The notes below the pieces were generated by a model. The model ran no database searches. It was not told the DNA's origin and saw nothing but the letters and a program-made list of their open reading frames with translations. The translations under genes were made by a program, and so were the position numbers. This document shows positions 5,230-38,603 of a DNA stretch of 38,603 nucleotides, one piece after another. This DNA is from Thermanaeromonas sp. Lineage in GTDB: Bacteria > Bacillota > DSM-521 > Neomoorellales > Neomoorellaceae. The stretch covers positions 1-38,603 of the forward strand of contig NZ_JAKKUR010000013.1 in the NCBI RefSeq assembly GCF_021890735.1. Direction: 5' to 3'. Within the stretch, counting starts at the first letter, position 1. Each line of letters begins with the position of its first letter.

Positions 5230-6148
5230 TCAAGAGGACCCATTCTCCGTCGCAGGCTCCCGGTAGGGGCTCCCCGTCTTCATCATCCGGAAAACGATGT
5301 TCACCAGCCTCCGCATGACGTAGACCATGGCCCGGTGGCGGTGCTCCGGCTCCTTCTCGGCGAGCTTCTTCTGGTAGTAGGCGTACATGAGGGGGTTCCT
5401 GGGGTTGCCGTCCCTGTCCGTGGCCACGTGCTGGACGGCGAGCATGTAGAAGGCGTGGTTCAGGCGCCTCTTGCCGTAGCGGTTCCGGCGGTGGCTTATT
5501 CTTTCCCCCGAGCTGAAGCTTACAGGGCAAATCCCAGCGTACTTCGCCACCTGGTCGGCGGAGCGGAAGCGGCTGACGTCGCCTATGTAGGCGATGATGG
5601 CTGCCGCCGTGACAATGGAGATGCCGGGCATGGTGAGGAGGTTGGGGTAGGGCGAGGCGTAGACGAGCCGCTCCAGGGCCGCTTTCACCCGCCGTATTTC
5701 CTCCTTCAAGTGCATGAGCCTCCGGACGCAGGAGCGGGTTACCTCGTCGTGGGCGTCCTGGAGGGGCGAAGTGGTCCAGCCGCTCTCCCTTGCCGCCGAG
5801 AGTATCTGCCTGGCCTTCTCCAGGTACCTCCCGGGGTAGCGCTTTTCCCGCAGGAAATCGGCGAGGCTCTCCTCGGTCTCGGAGAGGAGGGCCCGGGGGC
5901 TGGGGAAGCGCTCGAAGAAGGCCAAGGCCACCCTGCCGTCGAGTCTCCTGAAGAAGCGCTGGTAGTTGGGGTAGTGCTGCATGAGGTGGGCGTGGAGGGC
6001 GTTGGTGACCCTGGCGGCCTCTTCCACCAGGTGGTCGTGGATGGCCAGAAGCTTTTTCATGGCGTAGTAAAGGTCGTCGGGCTTCGCGTCCTTCAGGCGC
6101 GGGAGGTCGAGGATGAGGGAGCGGCAGATGGCCTTAGCGTCCTCGAAG
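5230..6148 (-). pseudogene. IS110-family transposase lacking its N-terminal catalytic domain
   Basis: About 306 residues of an IS110-type transposase. The C-terminal Transposase_20 part is clear (LLTMPGISIVTAAAIIAYIG, then DVSRFRSADQVAKYAG and HRRNRYGKRRLNHAFYMLA). A coiled middle section precedes it. Full-length IS110 proteins are about 400 residues and begin with a RuvC-like DEDD nuclease domain, which is missing. The frame runs into the left terminal repeat of an IS66 element at 6149, and the only start beyond that is a TTG inside that repeat. The IS66 insertion, with loss of flanking DNA, therefore truncated it. It should be unable to transpose. Confidence 0.85.
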
Positions 6149-6173
6149 GTAAGCGTCAAATACAACCCACCTT
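6149..6173 (+). repeat. IS66 left terminal inverted repeat
   Basis: Reads GTAAGCGTCAAATAC then AACCCACCTT. It differs from the right repeat at one position in 25. The truncated IS110 frame reads into it from the left. Confidence 0.85.
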
Positions 6174-6237
6174 GGCCCTGTGCTCGAGTTTAAGGGATAA
6201 TCTTCCTCAGAAAACGGACTGAGGAAGATTTCCCCTT

Positions 6238-6464
6238 ATGACCAGAGCCGAATTACAAAAGCTATGGGAAGTTCGCATAGCTGAATACAGGGAAAGCGGG
6301 CAAAGCGTTAAAGAATGGTGCGCCTCCCATGAGGGCATTAGCCCCAGGCAGTTATGGTACTGGCCCTACTGGTCAAAATAGGACCGGCCAGCATCGAGGT
6401 AAGACCCGGCTTTGACCCGGCCTTACTCACCCAGGTAGTTCAGGTGCTGATGGCATTATGCTAA
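6238..6464 (+). pseudogene. tnpA: IS66 accessory gene tnpA with internal deletion
   Basis: The first part (MTRAELQKLWEVRIAEYRES, GQSVKEWCASHEGISPRQLWYW) is the usual N-terminal DNA-binding helix-turn-helix of IS66 TnpA, but this frame stops at 6379. A second frame, starting near 6367, reads VKIGPASIEVRPGFDPALLT and ends VLMALC at 6464. That is the normal TnpA C-terminus. The linker between them is missing, with a frame change. The last codons overlap the tnpB start, as in complete IS66 elements. Confidence 0.8.
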
Positions 6465-6814
6465 ACGAAGTTGGTATCGACCGGGTTTACCTCGCCTGCG
6501 GCGCCACAGACTTGCGCAAGTCCATCGACGGCCTGGCGGTGCTGGTCAAGGAAGGCTTCGAATTAGACCCATTTTCTTCTTGCCTCTTTGTCTTCTGCAA
6601 CCGTAAGAGGGACAAACTGAAGATCCTCCACTGGGAGCACAACGGGTTCTGGCTTTATTACCGCCGGCTGGAGAAGGGCAAATTCATATGGCCGCAAGAC
6701 ACTACTTCTTCCACCATCACCATAAGCCGCCGGGAGCTGCGCTGGTTGCTTGATGGCCTCTCCCTAAACCAGCCTAAAGCTCATCCCGAGGTAAAAGCGC
6801 GCACCATCTTGTAA
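6458..6814 (+). CDS. tnpB: IS66 accessory protein TnpB (IS66 Orf2 type)
   Basis: A 118-residue protein of the IS66 Orf2-like family. Its start VYLACGATDLRKSIDGLAVLV and the segment LFVFCNRKRDKLKILHWEHNGFWLYYRRLEKG are the family hallmark. The end (ISRRELRWLLDGLSL) is also typical. Length is normal and the frame is intact. TnpB is needed for IS66 transposition together with TnpA and TnpC, but its exact role is unknown. The start overlaps the tnpA tail. Confidence 0.93.
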   Translation: MLNEVGIDRVYLACGATDLRKSIDGLAVLVKEGFELDPFSSCLFVFCNRKRDKLKILHWEHNGFWLYYRRLEKGKFIWPQDTTSSTITISRRELRWLLDGLSLNQPKAHPEVKARTIL

Positions 6815-8471: not shown

Positions 8472-10082
8472 TTAGCGTTGTGTACCGTACATACTGAACT
8501 GCTGTGCCAACCAGGCACTTTGCATATTCATACGTGCGATGGCCCGCTCCAGTGCCGTAAACTGCCGCCAGTAGCGGTCTTCGATCTGCCGCAACCTATT
8601 CTCCCAGGCAGCGATTCTTTCGTTTAACTGGGCAATCTCCCTACCGATAGCGCTGGTATCCACTCTAGAAAATGACACATCGCTCCCAGCTTTGGCGTAA
8701 AGCATTTTTAAAGCGTTTTCCACATCGTCATAAAGTCTTTGGGCAATGCCCTTTTCGTTGTAAGCTTTAGGATCTTCTGGGCTCTTAGTGAAAAGCCTCA
8801 TCACCGCGACAGGATCTTTAGAAAGGGCCTCCCGTAACTTAGCCTCATTGATGTAAAGCTTACCCCTCTCGGCATAAAGACCTGTAGTGATACCTATATC
8901 GGCCAATGTGTCAGCACTTGCGGACAGACCTGGCACTACAGCAGACATAGTAGCGCGCATCTTATCTAGAATACTTTGCAACAGTGGGTCTCCCTGTAAA
9001 AGCCCGCTCCTGGCCTTTTCCTCCCATTTCTTTTCCTGCTCGTCGGAAAGTTGTTCCCTCTGCTCATCGGTAAGCGGTAAGTAATCCCGGTACCGGGGCT
9101 CGGTGAGCTTGGCGTTGATTTTGCCGATGAGCTCATTGTAGGCGTTGACGAAATCTTTGATGGCGTTAAAAACTGCGTCGGTGTCGGCTGAGACGGTTAT
9201 GGTGACAGGGTTATTAGGGTCAGCCTTCTTTAGATTGAGCGTAATACCGGCTACCGTAGGGGCGTTCGTCGAGCTAGTGTAGGTTAATTTGGCGTCACCG
9301 ATAGTGATGTTGAACGATGCATTTTGGCCGACATTGCGGTAAGGAAGAGACGGATCATTGTAAATTGCACCGTCACCTTTAAGCAATAGCCCTAAAATGT
9401 TATTTCCCTCTCCATTGGGATCAGAGAGGAAGTTGTGTGAATCATTTCTAACTACTATTTTCGCATCTTCACCCGTAGAAGTGGTGGTGAGAATAAAACG
9501 ATTCAAATTGGAGTCATAGGAGGCGATTATCCCCAAGTCGGCATCGTTGATTTTTTTGACGACGTCATAGATAGTGTTCTTGGTGGTGTCAAAACTAAAG
9601 TAATCTGTGCCTTTCTTCCCTTTGCTGCCTTCCAGCTCAAAAGAGATAGTCCCTGTTATCCCAAACTGTTCAGCAAGAGTCTTGACGGTTTTGGTGTTAT
9701 CATCGTATTCTTCCTCCAGGTTCTTCTGGCTTACTTTATAAACCCCGGTGGCCAGGCTTGTTACTTCTACGGTTTAGGTTCCAGGTGTAGCGTTGGGGCC
9801 GGCTGTGGCGACTACTGAACTTTCATCCGACGATACAGCCTTCTTGGCCAGGTAAGTGGCCTGCAGCTTCATGGCAAAAACTTTGTCCCTGAACGAACGC
9901 AGCGCGGCGTAAATGGACCGATAGTCCTCCTGTTGCCACTCCAAAATTTGCTTTTGCTGGTTTAGCTTATCTATGCGCATCCGCTCTATTTTCATTAGTT
10001 CCTTGACGATTGACTCAGTATCCAGTCCCGTAGCCAGGCCGGTCAAGCGTAAGCTGGAGCTGATAGCCGAAACCGAGCTCAT
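8472..10082 (-). pseudogene. fliD: Flagellar cap protein FliD interrupted by one in-frame stop
   Basis: FliD caps the flagellar filament and guides flagellin assembly. The whole 537-codon frame is continuous except for a TAA at 9774-9776. The first 102 residues carry the FliD N-terminal domain (LRLTGLATGLDTESIVKELM, KQILEWQQEDYRSI) and end NATPGT. After the stop the same frame continues TVEVTSLATGVYKVSQ and runs to the normal C-terminal coiled coil (IAQLNERIAAWENRLRQIEDRYW, ending SMYGTQR). In FliD this site is usually PGTYTVEV, so a tyrosine codon seems to have become TAA. It may be a real nonsense mutation or a sequencing error. A sigma-28 promoter lies upstream. Confidence 0.9.
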
Positions 10083-28627: not shown

Positions 28628-30232
28628 GTGAGCTTTTTTCTTTTTTTAACCAGCCTTGTGGGCGGGTTGGCCCTTTTTATTTTTGGGACCAACCTGATAA
28701 GCGACGGATTGAGGAAAGCGGCGGCCCTTGAAGTACAGAAGATACTGGGGACTTTCACCCGCAACCGGATCGCCGGGATGTTGGTGGGCTTGGTAGTAAC
28801 CGTTTTCCTGCAGACCAGCGCGGTGACCAGTGTTCTTCTGGTGGGGTTTGTTAGTGCAGGGCTTATGACTTTGGAACAGGCTTTAGGGGTGATTTTGGGC
28901 GCTGCTATAGGGTCTACCGTCACCGTGCAGCTTATTGTATTCCGGATTACCGATTACGCTCCCTGGGCCTTAGTTTTAGGGCTTCTCCCTTACCTTTTGG
29001 CCAGGCGGCGCAGGTGGCGTTACCTAGGACAGGCGGTAGTAGGGTTCGGCCTCTTATTTTACGGGGTAGCGACCATGTCTTCGGCAGTCCAGCCCTTGAA
29101 GGATTACCCGGGCTGGGTCGTTGAGATGCAGCATTTGGCCTCCCGCCCGTGGCTTTTATTTGTAGCGGCTACTTTATTTACTGCTATTGTTCAAAGTAGT
29201 GCCGCTCCGGTAGCGCTGGCTATTTCCCTTGCCGGGCAGGAGGCCCTCTCTCTGGAGCCTGCTTTGGCCGTAGTATTAGGCGCTAATGTAGGTACTACTG
29301 CTACGGGGATTCTGTCCAGCCTGGGGGCTTCTTGGGAAGCCAAGCGGGTGGCCTGGGGCCATTTCTTTTTTAAAGTGACAGGAGCTCTGCTTTTCTTGCC
29401 TTTTTTATCCGGTTATGCTCGCCTGTTGGAGTGGACATCTCCCGACCTGCCCCGCCAGATCGCCAACGGCCACACCATTTTTAACGTAGTTAACATGCTT
29501 ATTTTCCTCCCCTTTACTCCTTATATGAGCAAGATTTTAGAAAGGCTTTTGCCTGAGCAACCTAAAGAAGAGAAAATAGCCAAATACCTGGATGAAACCC
29601 TTTTGGAGGTTCCAGAGCTGGCTTTAAGCAGGGTCCGCCAGGAGATTTTGCGTATGGCAGGTATCATTCGGGGAAAGATGTTTCCCCAGGCGATGCAACC
29701 CCTTCCCTTACGGGAAGAAGGGCTGCTCCGTAAACTTAAGGAAGTTGATGACGTGCTGGATTTTCTTTACCAGGCCATTGCGAGATACCTGGCCCGTATT
29801 TCCCCGGGAGATGAGAGGGAAGAAGTGGAGAAGGCCCGCCTGCTCTATATAGCCAATGACCTGGAGCACATAGGAGATGTTATGGTTCAAATAGCCCGGC
29901 AGTGGCGGAAGATGGAGGAGAGTGGTCTTGTATTTTCTGTTGAGGGGCAGTCCGAAATGGAGGAGATGTATAAGCTGGTACAGGAAAATTTTGACAAGGC
30001 TGTAGAGGCTTTCGCTTCCGTAGATCATAACCTGGCCGTGCAGGTTATAAAGCAGCATCCCGCACTCCTTAAGATGGAAAAGACCTTGCGTTTTAACCAT
30101 TTCCAGAGGCTGCAGCAAGAAAACCGTTTAAGTCTGGAGACTACGGCCGTGCATATGGACCTTATAAACTATCTTTTGCGTGTCAACAGCCATACGGTAA
30201 GCATCGCCCAGGCGGTCCTGGGGATCATTTAA
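28628..30232 (+). CDS. Na+/phosphate cotransporter with PhoU-like C-terminus
   Basis: A 534-residue NptA/PNaS-type symporter. Two homologous membrane halves contain the QSS-type signatures ([22 protein letters not shown] and [19 protein letters not shown]), with [13 protein letters not shown] and [12 protein letters not shown]. Residues of about 335-530 are a cytoplasmic PhoU-like helical domain ([20 protein letters not shown]). It imports phosphate with sodium. The GTG start has GGGAGG upstream. Pairing with phoU suggests joint control of phosphate uptake. Confidence 0.93.
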
Positions 30233-30308
30233 AAGTTGCACCCGGGGTGGTCATGTTGTATTCTTAAGTCGGCAGGAAAATGAATGGAAGCAGGGAGGTA
30301 CGTTTTTC

Positions 30309-31157
30309 ATGCAGGGCATATGGGTGACCGAACTTCAAACTCCAAGCCTAGCTTTATCTTGCCGTGTTAAGAAAACCCTGCATCGGGAAAAAACGCCTTA
30401 CCAGGAGCTATGCATTGTGGATACCGAAGCCTTCGGCCGGATGCTGCTCCTGGACGATGTTATCCAGACCACAGTTAAAGACGAATTTGTCTATCACGAA
30501 ATGATCGCCCATGTTCCGCTAAATACCCATCCTCATCCCCAGGAAGTCCTCGTGATAGGTGGGGGTGACGGAGGAGCCATCAGGGAGATCATTAAGCATG
30601 CCAGCGTTACCCGGGCCGTTTTGGTGGAGATAGATGCCCGGGTGGTGGCGGCCGCACGGGAATATTTACCAGAGATCGCTTGTGGTCTGGATGATGCCCG
30701 GGTGGAGATACGGTTTGAGGACGGTATCGACCACGTGCGCCGTTTTGAATCCCAGTATGACGTGATAATAGTAGACTCCACGGACCCCGTGGGACCGGCG
30801 GAGGGCCTCTTTACCCGGGAGTTTTACCAGAATGTGTTCAAGGCTTTGAAGCCCGACGGATTGTTTGTCGCCCAGACGGAATCGCCGTTCCTTAACGGCG
30901 AGTTTATCAGGCGCGTATACTACGATATAGCCAGCGTTTTTCCTATAGCGCGCATTTATCTGGCCACGATACCCACTTATCCCGGAGGTCTGTGGACCTT
31001 CAGCCTCGGGAGCAAGCAATATGATCCTTTAGAGGTGGATCCTGCTCGTATACCACGTATTCCCACCCGTTACTATTCTCCGGAAATGCACCGGGCGGCT
31101 TTTATCTTACCGCCTTTTGTAGAGGAAATAATCCGGCCCGAAGAAGAAAGGGAATGA
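30309..31157 (+). CDS. speE: Spermidine synthase
   Basis: It transfers aminopropyl from decarboxylated SAM to putrescine. The 282 residues start with the small beta domain ([46 protein letters not shown]). The nucleoside-binding [15 protein letters not shown] and the catalytic loop [23 protein letters not shown] follow. The end [15 protein letters not shown] with [11 protein letters not shown] is also typical. GGGAGG is upstream of the ATG. It overlaps speB by ATGA, so the two enzymes are coupled. No SAM decarboxylase gene is in the window. Confidence 0.95.
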
Positions 31158-32071
31158 AGAAGCAAGGGAGTAGATTTTACGCGGAGGAGTCGAAAGGAAA
31201 ATTGAGGGGTGAACTTGGTTTCTTGGAGGAAGGAGTATTCCTAGGGGGTAGCAACGATTACGAGGCCGCGCGGGCATGCCTCTTGGGTGTACCCTTGGAT
31301 GTGACTGGTACCTTCCGGCCCGGCAGCCGTTTTGCTCCCCAAGCCATCCGGGCTGTGTCGGAAGTTCTGGAGGAATTTAGCCCTGCCTTAAGGCGGAGCC
31401 TTAGGGAAGTGGCTTTCTGCGATTTAGGGGACCTGGAGATGGTACCCGGGCAGGTAGAGGAGAATCTCGGCCGTATAGAAGAGGCCGCCTTTAAAATAAT
31501 GAAAGAAGGTAAGATCCTTTTGTCCCTCGGGGGTGAGCACCTGGTAAGTTACCCGCTGATCCGCGCGGCCCGAAGTCTTCATCCCGAGTTGGCCGTGTTA
31601 CATTTTGATGCTCACGCGGACCTGCGGGAGGAATACCAGGGTAAGAAGTATTCCCATGCTACGGTCATGCGCTTGGTAGCAGAGGAGATAGGAGCAAGCA
31701 ACCTCTATCAATTTGGTATTCGCTCCTGTACCTGGGAGGAATTAATTTACGGGAGCGAAAACACTAACTTTTTCTTAGACCATATTGAGGTACCGTTATC
31801 CAAATTGGCGCCGGAACTGAAAAGTCGCCCTCTGTACCTTTCCCTGGATATAGACGTTGTAGATCCCGCCTATGCTCCGGGTACCGGCACTCCGGAGCCG
31901 GGCGGTTGTACACCTCAAGAGCTTTTTTCTGCTCTATACTTGCTTAAAGGAGCTAATGTGGTAGGCTTGGATTTAGTGGAAGTATGTCCGGCTTACGATA
32001 CGGGAAATATAACGGCGATCCTGGCTGCAAAGCTGATCCGTGAAGCCATCCTTGCTTTTACCCCTTCTTAA
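31154..32071 (+). CDS. speB: Agmatinase
   Basis: Agmatinase hydrolyses agmatine to putrescine and urea, supplying the substrate of SpeE. The 305 residues have the arginase-fold Mn2+ ligands in order: [24 protein letters not shown] and [22 protein letters not shown]. The early segment [22 protein letters not shown] is also characteristic. The final helix ([26 protein letters not shown]) is complete. The N-terminal 25 residues are a little longer than usual. It is the last gene of the operon before a strong terminator. Confidence 0.94.
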
Positions 32072-32095: not shown

Positions 32096-32134
32096 AAAGA
32101 AGGCCTCCTTCCGTAACGGGAGGAGGCCTTCTTT
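32096..32134 (+). terminator. Terminator of speE-speB
   Basis: An 18-bp stem (32096-32113 with 32117-32134, one G-U pair). It ends with CTTCTTT. Between here and the tRNA fragment at 32279 I see no gene. Confidence 0.85.
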
Positions 32135-32278
32135 GCCCTTGCATGTGCCGGGAGGGAGGCAAGTTAGAAGGAGCTTTTGCTTTTAGTGGCGCTTTCCACT
32201 TTTAAGGAATCCGCATAAATAAAGCCACCTCCAGTATTTCTGAAGGCGGCCGCAGGGAGAGGATTATGCATATTTATT

Positions 32279-32332
32279 TGGTGCCCCAGGGCGGAATCGA
32301 ACCGCCGACACGAGGATTTTCAGTCCTCTGCT
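32279..32332 (-). other. tRNA-Phe(GAA) 3' fragment, likely integration scar (att site)
   Basis: The minus strand reads AGCAGAGGACTGAAAATCCT and on through variable loop, T arm (GGCGG-TTCGATT-CCGCC), CTGGGGC, A and CCA. It is a perfect 3' part of a tRNA-Phe from the end of the D stem, with the anticodon loop CTGAAAA (GAA). The acceptor 5' strand and D arm are absent; the upstream sequence does not match a tRNA. Partial tRNA 3' ends of this kind mark integrase-mediated insertion, with the intact tRNA at the other element end. Confidence 0.85.
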
Positions 32333-32441
32333 TGGATTCCGCAAGCTCCAGGCTTGAAAAATCTAGCTTCCTCTGCTTCAGGCCACCTTCAAGAACAGGG
32401 GATTCTAATGCTTCTTTTTCACTATTATTCGCCACATTTTC

Positions 32442-32481
32442 GCAAAATCCTGCTCAAGTGGAGGAGTTTTTTAAAAGGGCC
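32442..32481 (-). repeat. 40-bp repeat, right copy (inverted partner at 117-156)
   Basis: Matches the reverse complement of 117-156 at 39 of 40 positions. It encodes the last residues (ALLKNSST) and stop of the zinc-finger gene and a few bases beyond. Confidence 0.85.
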
Positions 32482-33530
32482 TCTAGTTTTTGCCTCTCCC
32501 GGTAGCGGTGGCTTTTGGCCGAGTGCTTGCAGGTATCGGAACAGTATTCCCGGTTTTTGTTGTAGCACCCACGCAAATCAAAAGGCTTCCCGCACCACTT
32601 GCACACCTTTACGTTGTGGCCGCAAAGGAGGATGTAAAACTGCAGGTACATGGCCTGAAGAAGATTTTTCGGCCTGATTACCGGCCTGAGTTTAAAAATA
32701 TCGTCTTTGGGATTACTGATTTTCTCAAGGCCAGTGTAGCTCAACCCCACATCGGCCAGTTTTTCCTCTATCTTCTCACGAATGTAGTACAGCCCAGCCA
32801 CCTGGTAGAACTCAAGCGGGTTGCGGTTTATTTCTTCGAGCGTGGCCGAAAAAGCAACATGGCCTTTCCCAAAACTCCTGCCTGCGGCTTCTTCAAAAGT
32901 TTCGCCTTCCTGCATTTCCACCTCGAAAGGCCAGTAAACGGCTTTTGTGTGACACTCCTTCCCGACTAACTGTCTAATGCCTGGGTGTAAGGCTACAAAC
33001 CTTATCCACTCTCTCATGCCGTCCAAATCCCGTTGCGTGACCTGCCGGAACTTATCCCACAAATCGGCCAGGGTTTCAGCTTCCCGCCAGAAATCCGCAA
33101 GGCTTTCCCAACTGTGTATGTGCCCATCAGCGTCAACATGAACTCCCAGAAAGCCGTACTGTGAGACCCACTTCTTTATTGCGGCTTTTTTGTTTCTCCC
33201 CTGCCTCACTTCTTTCACAAGGCGGCATAGCGAAGGAATCAAGTCGGCAGTCTCAAAGGCGTTGTAGGTGCTTTTTTCGCTGCGTTTCTCTGCCTCAAGC
33301 ACGTCTTCGATTTCTTCGGGTTTTCGCTGCAAGTCCACTCCCTGGGCCTTCAAATAGTCCAGATAAGCCTGGGCCTCTTTCTTTCCTGTTCCTGGCGGCA
33401 ATCCCATAAGAAAATGTCGTTTCTCCCGCCAAACCCAACCTTTGCCCCACTTGTACCTCGTGTACACCGTCTGCTCAAACCGGCACTCCACCGGGAAATG
33501 CTGGTAGAGCGAATGCATACCCATTTGCAT
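32454..33530 (-). CDS. Unknown protein with C-terminal zinc-finger (CGNR-like)
   Basis: A 358-residue protein. Its C-terminus has CKWCGKPFDLRGCYNKNREYCSDTCKHSAKSHRYRERQ, a four-cysteine finger with the arrangement of CGNR-type zinc ribbons (C-x2-C-xn-C-x4-C and a basic helix). The rest shows helical segments (AQAYLDYLKAQGVDLQRKPEEIEDVLEAE, SLADFWREAETLADLWDKF) without a recognised fold. The start is placed at 33530, where AAAGGGGGT precedes ATGCAAATGGGTATG; in-frame ATGs at 33524 and 33518 are alternatives. The start overlaps a tandem-repeat array. It is divergent from an Xre gene. Its last eight codons lie in a repeat shared with 117-156. Confidence 0.75.
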   Translation of the reverse strand: MQMGMHSLYQHFPVECRFEQTVYTRYKWGKGWVWREKRHFLMGLPPGTGKKEAQAYLDYLKAQGVDLQRKPEEIEDVLEAEKRSEKSTYNAFETADLIPSLCRLVKEVRQGRNKKAAIKKWVSQYGFLGVHVDADGHIHSWESLADFWREAETLADLWDKFRQVTQRDLDGMREWIRFVALHPGIRQLVGKECHTKAVYWPFEVEMQEGETFEEAAGRSFGKGHVAFSATLEEINRNPLEFYQVAGLYYIREKIEEKLADVGLSYTGLEKISNPKDDIFKLRPVIRPKNLLQAMYLQFYILLCGHNVKVCKWCGKPFDLRGCYNKNREYCSDTCKHSAKSHRYRERQKLEALLKNSST

Positions 33531-33562
33531 ACCCCCTTTGCATACCCATTTGAATACCTTCC
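33514..33562 (+). repeat. Four tandem 12-13-bp repeats at a divergent gene pair
   Basis: TGCATACCCATTTG at 33514 and 33539, with a variant TGCATACCCCCTTTG at 33526 and a weaker copy TGAATACCTTCC at 33551. They lie over the start of the zinc-finger gene and upstream of it, in the region shared with the divergent Xre gene. They look like binding sites for a regulator, perhaps that Xre protein. Confidence 0.65.
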
Positions 33563-33639
33563 AATACATGCTAATGCCTGCTAGCTTTAAATGTAGCAAA
33601 CACAAGCTCAAACTGCAACCGGGAGAAAGGGGGTAGCCT

Positions 33640-33885
33640 ATGGTTACTAATCTTCGCCTGCTTCGGGTACGCAAAGGGTTAACCGTTAGAAAAGTGGCGG
33701 CCCAACTCGGTGTCAATGAAACCTGGTATTGCCGGATGGAAAGAGGCCAGAACTACATTCCGCCACACTACCGCCAAAAACTGGCCGAGTTTTTCGGTGT
33801 TCCCGTCTCCGAAATCTGTGACCCGACCACCGGCTGGCCGGTATTGATAGACCAGCCAATGCCGAAGCTAGTGCGGAAGGCGTAG
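33640..33885 (+). CDS. Xre-family helix-turn-helix regulator
   Basis: An 81-residue Cro/CI-type protein. LRLLRVRKGLTVRKVAAQLGVNETWYCRMERGQ forms the helix-turn-helix, followed by HYRQKLAEFFGVPVSEI. The last 20 residues are a short tail. The ATG has GAAAGGGGGT upstream. It is divergent from the zinc-finger gene across about 110 bases with tandem repeats, so it is the likely local regulator of the element. Confidence 0.88.
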   Translation: MVTNLRLLRVRKGLTVRKVAAQLGVNETWYCRMERGQNYIPPHYRQKLAEFFGVPVSEICDPTTGWPVLIDQPMPKLVRKA

Positions 33886-33971
33886 CCAGCAGAACAAGTG
33901 AATACTCCTCGTCGAGGAACCCGAGAGGGAGAAGGCGAGGCAATGAGGTAATCTCCGGGAGGTGTACCCTT

Positions 33972-34133
33972 TTGTCTCCGGAAGCTAAAGCCCGAAGGCG
34001 AGAGAACCGGCGAAGAGCTAGGCGGCTAATGAAAATGTTGGCTTGCGAACGGGAGTTTAGAAGCTGGGCGGGAATCAATGACCCAACCCTTGGAGTGGTG
34101 TTGAGGAAGATACAAAGAGGCCGGGCGATATGA
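33972..34133 (+). CDS. Small basic ORF
   Basis: A 53-residue frame beginning with TTG (MSPEAKARRRENRRRARRLM) and ending KIQRGRAI. GGGAGG lies eight bases before the start. The strongly basic N-terminus suggests nucleic acid binding. No family recognised; the TTG start and short length leave real doubt. The stop lies in the loop of the hairpin at 34118-34140. Nothing else coding is seen in 33886-34169. Confidence 0.35.
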   Translation: MSPEAKARRRENRRRARRLMKMLACEREFRSWAGINDPTLGVVLRKIQRGRAI

Positions 34134-34141
34134 CCCGGCCT
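34118..34141 (+). terminator. Hairpin after the small basic ORF
   Basis: AGGCCGGG (34118-34125) pairs with CCCGGCCT (34134-34141) around an 8-base loop. Only TTAAG follows, so it is a weak terminator or a structured leader for the next operon. Confidence 0.45.
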
Positions 34142-34169
34142 TAAGCCTTTGAAAGGGGGGGGAACTTCA

Positions 34170-34538
34170 ATGAAGGCTATCCCAATCAGGGCCTGCGTAG
34201 GTGGCCGTTGGGCCATAGCGGGAAAACTTATCCCCGGCGACCCTGCAATTTTTGAGCAACGAATAAAGCCCGGCGACATCCTCCGCATTGAAGGAGCGGC
34301 AGGTATTGACCTGGTGTATGACCCACCCTTGCCGGAAAACACGGTTATTCGGCACATAACAGCAGTGGCAACCTTCGAGATACCGCTAGCGGTGTTAAAA
34401 ACCCATCCCAAAACACGTATTCGCCAAGTAGGGAGCTTACACCCTAAGCGGATGTACCTGCCATACCGCTATTGGCGGAACGTGAACGAGGAGCAGGAAC
34501 AGCTTACATTCGCATGGGTAGGTGAGGCTTCGGTATGA
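34170..34538 (+). CDS. Unknown protein upstream of the primase
   Basis: A 122-residue protein, MKAIPIRACVGGRWAIAGKL and on, with alternating beta-type segments (IKPGDILRIEGAAGIDLVYD, NTVIRHITAVATFEIPL). No family recognised. ATG 34170 is preferred over an upstream in-frame ATG (34149) because GGGGGGGGAACTTCA gives a ribosome site at the right distance. Its stop overlaps the primase start by ATGA, so it is co-translated with it and probably works in replication or its control. Confidence 0.7.
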   Translation: MKAIPIRACVGGRWAIAGKLIPGDPAIFEQRIKPGDILRIEGAAGIDLVYDPPLPENTVIRHITAVATFEIPLAVLKTHPKTRIRQVGSLHPKRMYLPYRYWRNVNEEQEQLTFAWVGEASV

Positions 34539-36331
34539 GCTTGCCTGCTGAAAGATTAACCGAGGCCCAGGCCCAACAAGGCTTGGGCCTCTCTATTTGG
34601 TGGCGGCCAGCCAAGGTAGCCCTCTACGACCGGGGCTGGAGGACGCTCCACTACCCTGATTATACGCTATTTTTAGCGACAGCGAAAGGGAGAAGAAGCA
34701 AGGCTATTTCTCCCTCACCGATTGGGGTAGACGGTAAGGTGTACTACATCGGCTTCGACATAGACACCGGGCCGGAGGCGGTACGGAAACTTTTGAGTGC
34801 CTTACCGCCTAACTGTGTGCCGCTTGTGAGCAGGAGCGGGGGCAGGAACGGAAATGGCTACCATGTATGGCTTTTCCCTTCCGAACCGCTAGAGGTGCAA
34901 ACCGCCGTTTCCTTCGCCAAGGTGGTGCGGGAGAAAGCGGGCGTTCTTTGCGAAATCAGGCCCACAAGCCGGAGAAGCTTATGTTTGAAGTGGCCCGGGC
35001 AGCGACACCCTGAGAGTGGCCTACAGGAGGTTTTCGTACCGCTCGACGACCTAAACGACACCGAACGGCTGGACACTCCTGTTATCCTCCAAATGCTCAC
35101 CGAAGGGTGCTACCGAACACCAATAGAAGTCGTTGAGGGCTTCGTTGAGGCCCATTGTTCCAAAAAGCCGAAGACCAAAAAGCAGGCCACCGCCAAGGCC
35201 AGGCCAGCCCAGCGGGTGGAAGGCCACTGGCTGGAGGTCTTCAAAGACGAGCAAGCAGGTTTCCGGTTGCTTGAGCTTTTCGGCAAGCATGTTAGGGTCA
35301 GTCGGCTAGGGCGGGCTTTCAAGTGTCCAGTCCACAATGAGCGGCGGCCAAGTGCCACCTTTATCCGGGATAGCAACGGGCTTATCGCCTTCCATGACTG
35401 GCACTTCGAGAAGTATGGCCTTGAAAGCGAGTTCTTCACCCTACCGGAACTTTACCATGCACTCAAGACCAAAAGCGAACTCCACAGGCTTGACCGCCGT
35501 GAACAAGCGGCCACCGCCAAGGAGCTAGCTTTCCTGCTTGGTTTCACCAATCCACTTGTAGAAGAAATCTCAAGCAAGTGGTTAGAGTCCACTAGAATCC
35601 TTCTCAAGCTAGGCGTGATTACCGACCTTATCTTTAAAAGATTGGTTACAACGCCAACACCGAAAGATTGGCTCAAAGCCTTGAATCTCAACGGTTTGAG
35701 TGATTTTGAAAGGGTTTGGGTGATGTGTTTTTGGTGCTTCATCCAGGACGCAATGGACGGCAAAGCGGTAACGGTAATGAGCAAGCGGTTTCTTGGCGAT
35801 AAGGCAGGCGTGAAGTATTGGGCTGTCAATAGAATCCTGAACCTGCTTTGTAGCTTGGGCCTCTTAGAAAAGTGTGAAGTGGTGAAGCATGGGAAACGTC
35901 TAGGTGCTGATAGGTACAGGCTTTGCAGGGTGAATGAAGCCGAAGCAAAACGACGGTTTGACTTGCTTTTCCCTGAAGGCAAGTTTAACCTCCGACAGTT
36001 TAAGGCTTCCCTGGTGGCGGAGCGGCTTGGCGAAGAGACGGCCAAAGCCATATTCCGGCGGCAGGGTGGAAAGGTATCCGAAGACCATTCCAAGGATATT
36101 CAAATACCTTCCGAAGGCCTCGGCATATCCTCGGAGGATATAGGCATATCCTTGGAGGATATTCAGGCCATTGAAGCGGCCATTAAGCGGCTTGCCGAAG
36201 AAATCGGCAGGCTTGAGGAGGCGGGCGATGTGTCGAGGGTTAACGATTTGGTGCGGCAGGCTGTTGCTTTGGGCAGGCGGAGGCTAGCCCTACTTAAGCG
36301 GGGGGATTATACTGCAAAAATTGCAGTTTAG
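34535..36331 (+). CDS. Primase-like replication protein of the element (archaeo-eukaryotic primase type)
   Basis: A 598-residue protein. The segment YIGFDIDTG (residues 71-79, D75 and D77) followed by SRSGGRNGNGYHVWLF (99-114) is the catalytic pattern of AEP primases such as those of TOTE-type and plasmid replication proteins. Residues 258-300 hold CPVHNERRPSATF, like a CHC2 zinc finger, but its second cysteine pair is replaced by FHDWH. Residues of about 405-470 look like a winged helix (VMSKRFLGDKAGVKYWAVNRIL). A heptad repeat (IQIPSEG, LGISSED, IGISLED) and a coiled coil end the protein. It probably primes replication of the element. Confidence 0.75.
   Translation: MSLPAERLTEAQAQQGLGLSIWWRPAKVALYDRGWRTLHYPDYTLFLATAKGRRSKAISPSPIGVDGKVYYIGFDIDTGPEAVRKLLSALPPNCVPLVSRSGGRNGNGYHVWLFPSEPLEVQTAVSFAKVVREKAGVLCEIRPTSRRSLCLKWPGQRHPESGLQEVFVPLDDLNDTERLDTPVILQMLTEGCYRTPIEVVEGFVEAHCSKKPKTKKQATAKARPAQRVEGHWLEVFKDEQAGFRLLELFGKHVRVSRLGRAFKCPVHNERRPSATFIRDSNGLIAFHDWHFEKYGLESEFFTLPELYHALKTKSELHRLDRREQAATAKELAFLLGFTNPLVEEISSKWLESTRILLKLGVITDLIFKRLVTTPTPKDWLKALNLNGLSDFERVWVMCFWCFIQDAMDGKAVTVMSKRFLGDKAGVKYWAVNRILNLLCSLGLLEKCEVVKHGKRLGADRYRLCRVNEAEAKRRFDLLFPEGKFNLRQFKASLVAERLGEETAKAIFRRQGGKVSEDHSKDIQIPSEGLGISSEDIGISLEDIQAIEAAIKRLAEEIGRLEEAGDVSRVNDLVRQAVALGRRRLALLKRGDYTAKIAV
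36122..36163 (+). repeat. Two adjacent 21-bp repeats inside the primase gene
   Basis: GGCATATCCTCGGAGGATAT and GGCATATCCTTGGAGGATAT follow each other directly, each with one more base, and match at 19 of 21. Each is nearly palindromic (ATATCC...GGATAT). They encode the heptads LGISSED and IGISLED. They may be iterons inside the rep gene or only a protein repeat. Confidence 0.6.
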
Positions 36332-36354
36332 CGGTAGACTGCAAAATTTGCAGT
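36311..36354 (+). promoter_or_regulatory. Pair of palindromic operators after the primase gene
   Basis: ACTGCAAAAATTGCAGT (36311-36327) and ACTGCAAAATTTGCAGT (36338-36354), 16 of 17 identical, centres 27 bases apart. The first spans the last codons and stop of the primase gene, and both precede the small membrane gene. Repeated palindromes at this spacing are typical of a dimeric repressor. Confidence 0.7.
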
Positions 36355-36390
36355 ATGGCCCAGGATACACCGCAGAAAGGAGGTTTACCC

Positions 36391-36501
36391 ATGAGGAAGC
36401 TAGCCCGACTTTATTTCCTGGGTGGGGTACTCTACCCTCTTAGCTGGACGTTAGCGGCAGTAGGGGCTATGCTGTTATTGATGGCCCTCTTTTCGAGGTG
36501 A
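36391..36501 (+). CDS. Small membrane peptide
   Basis: A 36-residue ORF: MRKLARLYFLGGVLYPLSWT and on, a basic start then one long hydrophobic segment to ALFSR. AAAGGAGG lies eight bases before the ATG, a very good ribosome site, and two operators lie just upstream. No family recognised. It could be a holin-like, toxin-like or signalling peptide; the role is not known. Confidence 0.55.
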   Translation: MRKLARLYFLGGVLYPLSWTLAAVGAMLLLMALFSR

Positions 36502-36575
36502 GGCTTTTTGACAGCACTCCCTACGCACATAAGGCTTTTTTGCAAGGACATATTCCCTGGTAGAGAAGGGGCGAG

Positions 36576-36911
36576 ATGACCAGGAAGAAAAGCCTCTTGC
36601 CCAAGCCGGTGTTTGGCTTAATCGAATATCTCTTGGGCGAGTATGACCATATGCTTGGGCTACTACAAAGCGAAGACCCGTTGATTCCTAGCACTACTCT
36701 CCTCGGTGCTGTCAGGCGTGTTCTTGCCATCAGTAGGGCACTCGACCGCCTCCAACCCCACCACCGCCGTCTTTTTGAACTGTGCTACCGGCGGAAACTA
36801 CCGAGAAGCCGGGTCTGCCTGGAAATGGGGATAAGCGAAGAAGCCTTTCTCCGCTACCGCCGGGAGCTGGTGTTAGCTGTGGGTCAGGAACTCGGGTTTA
36901 TTTTGGCCTAG
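36576..36911 (+). CDS. Sigma-70 region 4-like (ArpU/RinA-type) regulator
   Basis: A 111-residue helical protein. The second half, LDRLQPHHRRLFELCYRRKL, PRSRVCLEMGISEEAFLRYRREL, has the form of a sigma-70 region 4 helix-turn-helix as in phage late-transcription regulators (ArpU/RinA type). The first half (VFGLIEYLLGEYDHMLGLL) is typical of such proteins, which follow replication genes. The assignment is by overall pattern only. ATG with GGGGCGAG upstream. The stop codon lies in the arm of a large inverted repeat. Confidence 0.6.
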   Translation: MTRKKSLLPKPVFGLIEYLLGEYDHMLGLLQSEDPLIPSTTLLGAVRRVLAISRALDRLQPHHRRLFELCYRRKLPRSRVCLEMGISEEAFLRYRRELVLAVGQELGFILA

Positions 36912-36975
36912 AAGCGGGGTTTTTCCCTTGCGGGGATATTTCCTATGCACCCCCACCCAAAAACCCGCTTCTAGG
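36907..36975 (+). repeat. Inverted repeat with 33-base loop spanning the gene end
   Basis: CCTAGAAGCGGGGTTTTT (36907-36924) is the inverse of AAAAACCCGCTTCTAGG (about 36958-36975), with one extra G. The left arm includes the stop codon of the sigma-4-like gene. It may act as a terminator or as a cruciform at the edge of the gene-free region. Confidence 0.7.
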
Positions 36976-37475
36976 CGGCGGTATAAATGGCAAAACTGGC
37001 AGAAGGTGGTGGGTGTTAAGCTAACATTAACGAAGGCTTTGGAAAGTTTAACACCTTAACGGGCGGCGGAGGCGTAACAAGGGTAACGAAGTTGTGGAGA
37101 AGCGTAACAGGCCAGCCCAAGGGTGTAGTGCAACAAACCCCTGGGGAAGTGCAACATTGCAACCTTGACAAGCGTGGCACCAGGCGGGAGGGTAGGGGTG
37201 CAAAATCCCTGGAACCGCCAGCATGTAGACCGCCGGGCCGGTGCTTTGCACACCGCCGCAAAATGGCGTAAAAAAACGGGGAGGAGCAAAAAGGCACATT
37301 TTAGGCACAAAAAGGTAGCAAAAAAGAGAGGCAAAAAGGAGGCAAAACCGAAGCATTTCCGGCGGGGTTAAAACTTCTCTCTTTCTTCTCTCCTTTCTCC
37401 CTCCGCAAAAAGGAGGGGGCAGAAGTAGGATAAAAGTGGGATGAAAGTGGGGCATTCGGCGGGAGGGATGAACAG
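36976..37475. other. Gene-free repeat-rich stretch, candidate origin
   Basis: About 500 bases with no convincing gene. The left part (37020-37110) has seven TAAC motifs, mostly in pairs that recur about every 27 bases. Next come two GTGCAAC motifs and GTGCAAC with TTGCAAC. The right part (37280-37420) is purine-rich with repeated GGCAAAAAGG-like units. Clustered short repeats downstream of a replication gene are what an iteron origin would look like, but this is inference. Confidence 0.45.
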
Positions 37476-37709
37476 ATGAACATGAGAAAGGAGCTAATCG
37501 CAGCTTTAGAAGCTTTAGCAGAAGCTGAGCTATGGGCGAGGATGTGCCGGGCCACCGATTGGGAGGCCTCCTGCATCAAAAAGCTGGAAGGTTGCAGGCT
37601 AGGGGTGAAACATTATGAAACGAAATGGAACGGTGGAACAGTGAAACACCGGCCAAAAAAGCGAACCGAACCGTGGACAAAAAAAGAACCGGGCTATTTG
37701 CCCGGCTAG
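37476..37709 (+). CDS. Small unknown protein
   Basis: A 77-residue frame, MNMRKELIAALEALAEAELW and on, helical first and then basic (RPKKRTEPWTKKEPGYLPG). GGGAGGG lies upstream of the ATG at a suitable distance, and the stop lies in a good terminator. No family recognised. Those two signs make it a probable gene. Confidence 0.55.
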   Translation: MNMRKELIAALEALAEAELWARMCRATDWEASCIKKLEGCRLGVKHYETKWNGGTVKHRPKKRTEPWTKKEPGYLPG

Positions 37710-37717
37710 GCTTTTTA
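37689..37717. terminator. Bidirectional terminator between convergent genes
   Basis: CCGGGC and GCCCGG around TATTT (37689-37705). A T run follows on the plus strand (37712-37716), and the reverse strand has TTCTTTTTTTG. Confidence 0.75.
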
Positions 37718-37729
37718 TCCCAAGTTCCT

Positions 37730-38131
37730 TTAGCCTTCCTCGTCGTAGAGTTTTACAAGTTCTGTTTCGCTCTTCCGCCAAACTGAATCCCTTTCCGGAG
37801 GGCCTTCCATGAACGGAACATAGTTGAAGATTTCGCCACCCTCCGAGAGAGGGTTAAACTCTTTGTTGTCCGATAACATGTGTTTCCAGTGCAAGAACGC
37901 ACCCTGTTTCCCACATTCTGGGCAGTAAGTATTGTCTACTCGGTGGCGATTAGATTGCCAAGAAAACACCAAAAAGTGTAGGCCGCAATGCTGGCAAATG
38001 AAGCTATGCACAAATACACCTTCCCTTTCGATGGTGAACTCATACCCTGTTTCAAGGTTGGCGACTCTTACGGTATTTTTCGTTTCTTGTGTGATTAGTT
38101 TGTTTCTTTTAAGGTCTACCCATGCTTTCAT
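37730..38131 (-). CDS. Unknown zinc-ribbon protein
   Basis: A 133-residue protein with two CxxC pairs: ICQHCGLHF and, 19 residues on, YCPECGKQG. This makes a zinc ribbon inside an otherwise unrecognised protein (start MKAWVDLKRNKLI). ATG with GGGGGGTG upstream. It overlaps the end of the preceding minus-strand gene by 23 bases, so the two are co-transcribed. No function can be assigned. Confidence 0.7.
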   Translation of the reverse strand: MKAWVDLKRNKLITQETKNTVRVANLETGYEFTIEREGVFVHSFICQHCGLHFLVFSWQSNRHRVDNTYCPECGKQGAFLHWKHMLSDNKEFNPLSEGGEIFNYVPFMEGPPERDSVWRKSETELVKLYDEEG

Positions 38132-38399
38132 TCCTACACCCCCCGCTTCTCAAGGCCTCAATAATCTCCTGCGTTGGCGGATACCACCCAGAAATGTTTA
38201 TCGCTCCACCAAAAGCCTCTACTGCTCCCTCGGCCAACTCTTGGCCGTTGGGTATCTCTTCGGTTACGTCTACATACTGGCCGTCCCGCAAGACCATAAT
38301 CCGGGCCCGGCAGTTGTAAACGTTGACGAAAACTTCGGGTGTCCCTCCAGCCTCGAAGAAGGCTATCCATTCAAGCTGATTTAGTACCGACTTACCCAT
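38109..38399 (-). CDS. Unknown protein, middle gene of a minus-strand operon
   Basis: A 96-residue protein: MGKSVLNQLEWIAFFEAGGT, VFVNVYNCRARIMVLRDGQYVDVT, GAVEAFGGAINISGWYPPTQEI. ATG 38399 is chosen because TTGGAGGA is just upstream; the frame is open further to an ATG at 38420. It overlaps the genes on both sides. No family recognised. Confidence 0.6.
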   Translation of the reverse strand: MGKSVLNQLEWIAFFEAGGTPEVFVNVYNCRARIMVLRDGQYVDVTEEIPNGQELAEGAVEAFGGAINISGWYPPTQEIIEALRSGGCRNESMGRP

Positions 38400-38603
38400 T
38401 CCTCCAAAGCCTCCCTGCATATCTCTTCTATGGGTTCGCCGAACTGTGGCAACTGTGGTGGCTCCTTGGCCTCTATTGCCGCTCTAAAGCCTTCAACGAA
38501 GACGTAGGTCTCTACGATACCGTTCCGCAGGTTTTTAAGCTCCTCCAACTTCTCATAGACGGCCTTCTCTTGCTCACCCAGGCGGCTTAGAAGTATCTCC
38601 TCA
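38381..38603 (-). CDS. Unknown protein, 5' end outside the window
   Basis: An open minus-strand frame of 73 codons entering from the right edge: EEILLSRLGEQEKAVYEKLE and on through LKNLRNGIVETYVFVEGFRA to EALEEWVSRY and a TAA at 38381-38383. It is helical and charged. It overlaps the next gene by 19 bases, the usual sign of coupling. The start codon lies beyond the window. No family recognised. Confidence 0.55.
   Translation of the reverse strand, partial: EEILLSRLGEQEKAVYEKLEELKNLRNGIVETYVFVEGFRAAIEAKEPPQLPQFGEPIEEICREALEEWVSRY

Follow-up and report, generated by a model that had tools for sequence, protein, structure and literature searches.

Genetic organisation of the locus

The window, by which we mean the whole stretch of 38,603 nucleotides that was analysed, is contig C104 of a 2.13-Mb Thermanaeromonas genome (G000). 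The last core gene to the left of the site described here is a speB-like gene of the agmatinase/arginase family (31154..32071, plus strand), and its terminator, at about 32100-32137, marks the beginning of the core chromosome proper. It is followed on the minus strand by a leader relic (32214..32278, perhaps reaching to about 32153), which includes the start of another integrase gene of the C24 integrase family and now lacks an open reading frame, and by a displaced 3' fragment of a tRNA-Phe gene (32279..32332), the distal attachment-site copy. The remainder of the window, from 32333 to 38603, is the interior of an element, of which it holds 6,271 of 7,483 bp; the other part lies at positions 53-1210 of the neighbour contig C24.

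The element encodes several proteins with mostly weak similarities. The gene next to the fragment (32454..33716, minus strand) codes for a protein with a C-terminal CxxC...CxxxC finger and weak PHROG and CGNR-type finger matches. A search for the finger motif among the distal proteins of related elements by a regular expression gave no match, and homology is not claimed. On the plus strand follow an Xre/CI-like HTH repressor (33640..33885; Pfam HTH_31, 1.8e-10; PHROG transcriptional repressor, 1.4e-8), a small protein without assignment (34149..34538), a putative replication primase (34535..36331) and a regulator resembling sigma-70 region 4 and phage activators (36576..36911; phrog_36, 3e-6; phrog_248, 8.9e-6; TIGR02937, 5.9e-4). 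The minus strand carries a zinc-ribbon protein with a weak Zn_ribbon_8 match (37730..38131), another small protein without assignment (38109..38420) and a DUF6809 protein (38384..38603; PF20648, 3.7e-8) that continues onto C24. Apart from a weak match to the zinc-ribbon protein (PDC-M14A, 1.3e-4), PADLOC did not detect a defence gene on the element.

The putative primase shows weak similarity to AEP primases, DnaG-type zinc fingers and winged-helix domains, all Pfam matches being below threshold (AEP-TOTE, 0.001; Zn_ribbon_DnaG, 0.14; MarR_2, 0.02). The assignment leans on position since related elements encode clear Prim-Pol, D5, AAA_25 or DnaG proteins at the corresponding site and on the corresponding strand. 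Relatives of the primase were not found in viral contigs, species genomes, phages or plasmids, with both contig scans made by peptide patterns only. Among 60 relatives, the only match was to the N-terminus and came from the genome itself (C83:42748-43014; 92 aa, 39%); it may be what remains of another element. A single-sequence structure prediction for the N-terminal 330 aa was uninformative (pLDDT 37.6).

Further observations concern other parts of the window. By eye from the translations, two frames at 5230-6814 resemble IS110 and IS66 transposase genes. Moreover, a flagellar cap (fliD)-like gene on the minus strand (8472-10082) is apparently split in two frames.

The tRNA-Phe fragment and its intact counterpart

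The fragment, whose minus strand reads AGCAGAGGACTGAAAATCCTCGTGTCGGCGGTTCGATTCCGCCCTGGGGCACCA, comprises the anticodon stem-loop (GAA), the variable loop, the T arm, the 3' strand of the acceptor stem and CCA. The earlier note had described these 54 bases as an exact 3' part of tRNA-Phe, and this description holds: an intact tRNA-Phe gene is located on C24 (1211-1286, minus strand), and its 3' 54 nt match the fragment at 100%. Identity begins just before the anticodon stem and extends to CCA. An exact match of this length is far beyond chance. When the 2.13-Mb genome was searched with a 76-nt query, two matches were obtained, one in the window and one at C24:1212-1264. The only complete copy is thus the one linked to the element, rather than an unlinked gene elsewhere, which would have spoken against the earlier proposal.

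It could be argued that no mobile element is involved at all, and that a complete tRNA gene has decayed here or a tRNA pseudogene, degenerate or duplicated, is present. Indeed, Rfam cmscan reports a full-length tRNA match at 32282-32353 (33.4 bits). However, the fragment alone scores higher as a truncated tRNA (36.7 bits, E 3.8e-7), and the score falls to 33.4 bits when the upstream 5' sequence is included. Moreover, the likeness of this upstream sequence to a tRNA 5' half is no better than that of about 70% of random element segments. A decayed 5' half upstream of the fragment was rejected on these grounds. Because the upstream sequence is at the random level, the 5' strand of the acceptor stem and the D arm are truly absent, as had been noted before. 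Likewise, ARAGORN did not call a tRNA at 32279-32332, its single call in the window being a tRNA-Leu. The pseudogene reading is also opposed by the full identity of the 3' part with its sharp break at the anticodon stem, and it is refuted by the integrase-bearing element between the two copies and by the empty site described below. We therefore regard it as hardly credible.

The other end of the element lies on C24. There, the intact tRNA-Phe gene is followed by tRNA-Asp and tRNA-Val, and on the element side it adjoins an intact gene for a tyrosine integrase (C24:155-1108, minus strand; 318-323 aa; PF00589, 3.1e-29). Hence, the intact gene that the earlier note expected at the far end is present with a tyrosine recombinase directly beside it, which bears out the proposed integration into the 3' end of a tRNA gene. 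The window ends with 52 bases that are identical to the first 52 of C24, and this stretch has a full-identity match nowhere else in the genome. Furthermore, the DUF6809 protein (about 111 aa) is encoded by an open reading frame of 111 aa that spans the join of the two contigs. From the assembly, we infer that C104 and C24 are adjacent, their ends being joined solely by the 52-base overlap. The unique shared end and the open reading frame over the join give an element of 7,483 bp, which is the repeat-to-repeat distance across the joined contigs. Taken as a tDNA island, the element has a regenerated tRNA gene and an identical displaced fragment at its two ends in the correct orientation, and the integrase gene lies within the interval.

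An uninterrupted site in a genome of the same genus

G001, the only genome of the same genus that was compared, is complete and consists of a single contig. Positions 29471-32070 of the window (79.7% identity) and 1190-2985 of C24 (80.1%) map side by side in this genome (locus L054, 9958-14500), where both flanks surround one intact tRNA-Phe gene onto which the 54-nt fragment maps at 100%. The order speB, 158 bp, tRNA-Phe, tRNA-Asp, tRNA-Val and MFS is found there in one piece. The speB-like gene is orthologous and collinear, and its 3' end directly faces the intact tRNA-Phe gene at a distance of about 158 bp from the tRNA 3' end. Thus, the empty site that had been suggested as a check exists in a close relative. 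As judged by alignment, the flank of tRNA-Phe in G001 resembles the arm of the element (score 54 versus a shuffle maximum of 45), and the site may be a deletion scar rather than a site that was never occupied. The tRNA-Phe site in the genus seems to be repeatedly used, since the flank in G001 also resembles the element arm.

A relic of a second integrase leader beside the fragment

The statement of the earlier note that everything to the left of the fragment is core chromosome stands for the speB side beyond the relic but fails for the approximately 65 bp that adjoin the fragment. Positions 32214-32251 and the leader of the C24 integrase can be aligned over 41 nt with 90% identity, including an exact match of the 32-nt hairpin pattern, and the terminator/Shine-Dalgarno leader of the relic lies at 32220-32251. 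The alignment score is 80, while the maximum among 1000 shuffles was 41. Only two copies of the hairpin leader are present in the genome, the relic and the leader on C24. Related arrangements were found at two other elements. Past the distal tRNA copy, the tRNA-Cys element of G001 is flanked by a related leader followed by 27 codons of an integrase gene (78% identical), and the tRNA-Leu element of G006 by a related leader and an integrase N-terminus of 37 aa (73% identical).

An earlier related element probably occupied the same tRNA-Phe site, as the leader sequences suggest. Serial occupancy, in which the older element was deleted while its leader was kept, would explain the relic. IMEs are known to accumulate in tandem at a single att site (PMC5704250). 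Alternatively, the relic could be the host's own tRNA-Phe terminator, which was copied into attP and is used as the integrase leader. The hairpin and flank common to the relic and the element leader are in line with this idea, and so is the resemblance of the G001 flank to the element arm. However, the shared stretch extends to TATTTATG at the integrase start, and the distal flanks of the G001 tRNA-Cys and G006 tRNA-Leu elements contain the leader together with N-terminal integrase codons (27 and 37 aa; 73-78%). Furthermore, other members of the host's family are devoid of such a flank. We consider a host origin of the relic unlikely, though worth keeping in mind, and favour its derivation from an earlier element.

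The integrase family and its tRNA targets

In the C24 integrase, the catalytic positions R, K, R, H and Y are conserved, and the usual first histidine of the HxxR motif is replaced by tyrosine in 10/10 aligned family members. The family integrases are 38-56% identical to the C24 enzyme and are found beside about 11 tRNA isotypes; relatives were not detected in viral contigs. Ten of them, including that of C24, were checked at both ends, and all ten follow a tRNA 3' end (Phe, Cys, SeC, Glu, Arg, Trp or Leu). The ten elements are cases in which repeats were found; G022:C73, G006:C6 and G051:C25 (near contig end) were left out. The direct repeats that bound them are 24-154 bp long and reach into or cover the tRNA gene, and the elements have sizes of 4.5, 6.4, 7.5, 7.9, 8.0, 8.6, 8.9, 12.1, 14.1 and 36.3 kb. 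The nine delimited relatives (4.5-36 kb) mostly carry primases. In a wider sample, tRNA-Met, tRNA-Gly, tRNA-Thr and tRNA-Asp also occur next to the integrase. Repeats in the attP arms are limited to 7-mers; an AATCAAG-like motif located 7-10 nt after CCA in about 12 of 29 arms is suggestive only.

Several family members have individual features. For instance, an 8.9-kb tRNA-Trp element (L092:4321-10300, G055) contains a complete-looking type I restriction-modification operon. A duplicated block of partial tRNA-Gly and tRNA-Cys (L081:14794-15097, G001; 154 bp) bounds a 4.5-kb element; another truncated integrase start follows and represents a tandem relic. Two damaged integrase genes of the same family are present in G000, one with three stops next to tRNA-Leu(taa) (C92:9391-10275) and one at a contig end with one stop listed in the match (C88:111-1010). 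The broken C92 integrase showed no repeat within the sequence searched and is outside the ten. Within the window, a HicA-like toxin frame, recognised by eye, runs into an integrase remnant (690-1056; remnant 806-1027, 42%, 78 aa), and this region has DNA similarity to G001 near the tRNA-Cys element.

The integrase leader

The leader of the C24 integrase (C24:1109-1146) forms a terminator-like hairpin with the Shine-Dalgarno sequence in its 3' arm. Among 34 distinct integrase leaders (sampled records L034-L052 and L099-L117), 79% have a hairpin with the Shine-Dalgarno sequence in the 3' arm and a U-rich tail, followed by the start codon. The stems vary (CCTCC/GGAGG, CCCCC/GGGGG, CCACC/GGTGG and CCACTC/GAGTGG). 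By comparison, such a hairpin was present at 0/24 start sites of other genes of the window. The hairpin scores of leaders and controls differ with p = 1.2e-6 (Mann-Whitney), a value that is indicative only because all controls are from this single genome and the integrases are related to each other. The tRNA array is preceded by a promoter match (11/12); the stretch from tRNA-Phe to the integrase contains one terminator hairpin and no promoter match. No account of an integrase leader that combines a hairpin terminator with the Shine-Dalgarno sequence was found in the literature, of which the coverage is partial.

It is a serious if tentative possibility that the integrase family carries a dual-use leader. 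The hairpin would serve as a replacement terminator for the tRNA operon and provide the Shine-Dalgarno sequence in its 3' arm, int would be expressed only from transcripts that start at the tRNA promoter and read through the hairpin, and the leader would be left as a scar after loss of the element, which would account for the relic in the window.

Relation to known mobile elements

The principle by which islands insert into tRNA genes has been described, and the element resembles Islander-type tDNA islands in having a tyrosine integrase, a regenerated tRNA gene at one end and a displaced 3' fragment at the other (PMC4383910). The identity block reaches the anticodon stem, as in the anticodon-centred class A of these islands (PMC4383910). 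While the insertion mechanism is the same, the small size and the gene content of the element are lineage-specific. The size of 7.5 kb, the integrase at the att end, the putative primase and the phage-like regulators are reminiscent of P4-like satellites, which have about 7-15 kb (PMC8628076), and of PICIs. The putative primase, the HTH repressor and the activator-like gene may correspond to the replication and regulatory genes of PICIs; a packaging gene was not recognised. Among the open reading frames of the element, Pfam and PHROG searches gave no match to Psu, Sid, delta, epsilon, AlpA, terminase or capsid-remodelling proteins. The P4 alpha profile (PF03288) is matched by the primases of two relatives but not by that of the element. 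Like IMEs, the element is small, bears an integrase and resides at a tRNA gene; a relaxase or coupling protein was not recognised among the open reading frames searched. Finally, intS of KplE1 (PMC2951348) also lies directly downstream of the regenerated tRNA gene in the same orientation, with its expression tied to the attachment region. In contrast to intS, no separate integrase promoter was seen here, and a terminator hairpin that contains the Shine-Dalgarno sequence forms the leader.

The phage-like repressor and the late-activator-like gene might also indicate a prophage remnant rather than an independent compact element, and the same integrase family drives a 36-kb element in G001. However, structural, terminase and lysis genes are absent among the open reading frames searched in the 7.5 kb, and several relatives of 6-9 kb have a common order of integrase, small genes, primase, HTH and distal gene. 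The prophage origin is therefore improbable, and we treat the locus as a compact integrative element, which may be a satellite, mobilizable or cryptic.

Proposed history and implications

In sum, the only tRNA-Phe gene of the genome has almost certainly been the target of a site-specific insertion, within its 3' part, by a 7,483-bp element with its own integrase. A related element probably occupied the site before. The mechanism of insertion is textbook. The attP of the element holds an exact copy of the last 54 nt of tRNA-Phe. The arrangement of the sequences indicates that recombination rebuilt the intact gene on the upstream side, next to the Asp and Val tRNA genes and MFS, and left the original 3' fragment on the speB side at 32279-32332. 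As identity sets in at the anticodon stem, the anticodon loop is the probable place of the crossover. Upon insertion, the element would give the tRNA operon a new terminator, the 3' arm of which is the predicted Shine-Dalgarno sequence of the integrase gene, and read-through of transcripts from the tRNA promoter probably yields small amounts of integrase. A prior related element would be the source of the leader that adjoins the fragment. In the circular form, the distal gene (32454..33716) would point in the same direction as the integrase gene on the other side of attP, and the excised circle probably replicates via the putative primase of the element.

The analysis places both boundaries of a small orphan integrative element, which would be split and overlooked in a fragmented assembly. 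It also ties the element to an integrase family reusing tRNA genes across the phylum. Beyond the earlier description, the element is now delimited in full, a relic of a probable previous occupant has been found beside it and a leader common to the family has been recognised. If the proposed function of the leader is true, transcription of the tRNA operon is still terminated while hardly any integrase is made, and the leader hairpin may explain element-derived terminators that are left at tRNA genes.
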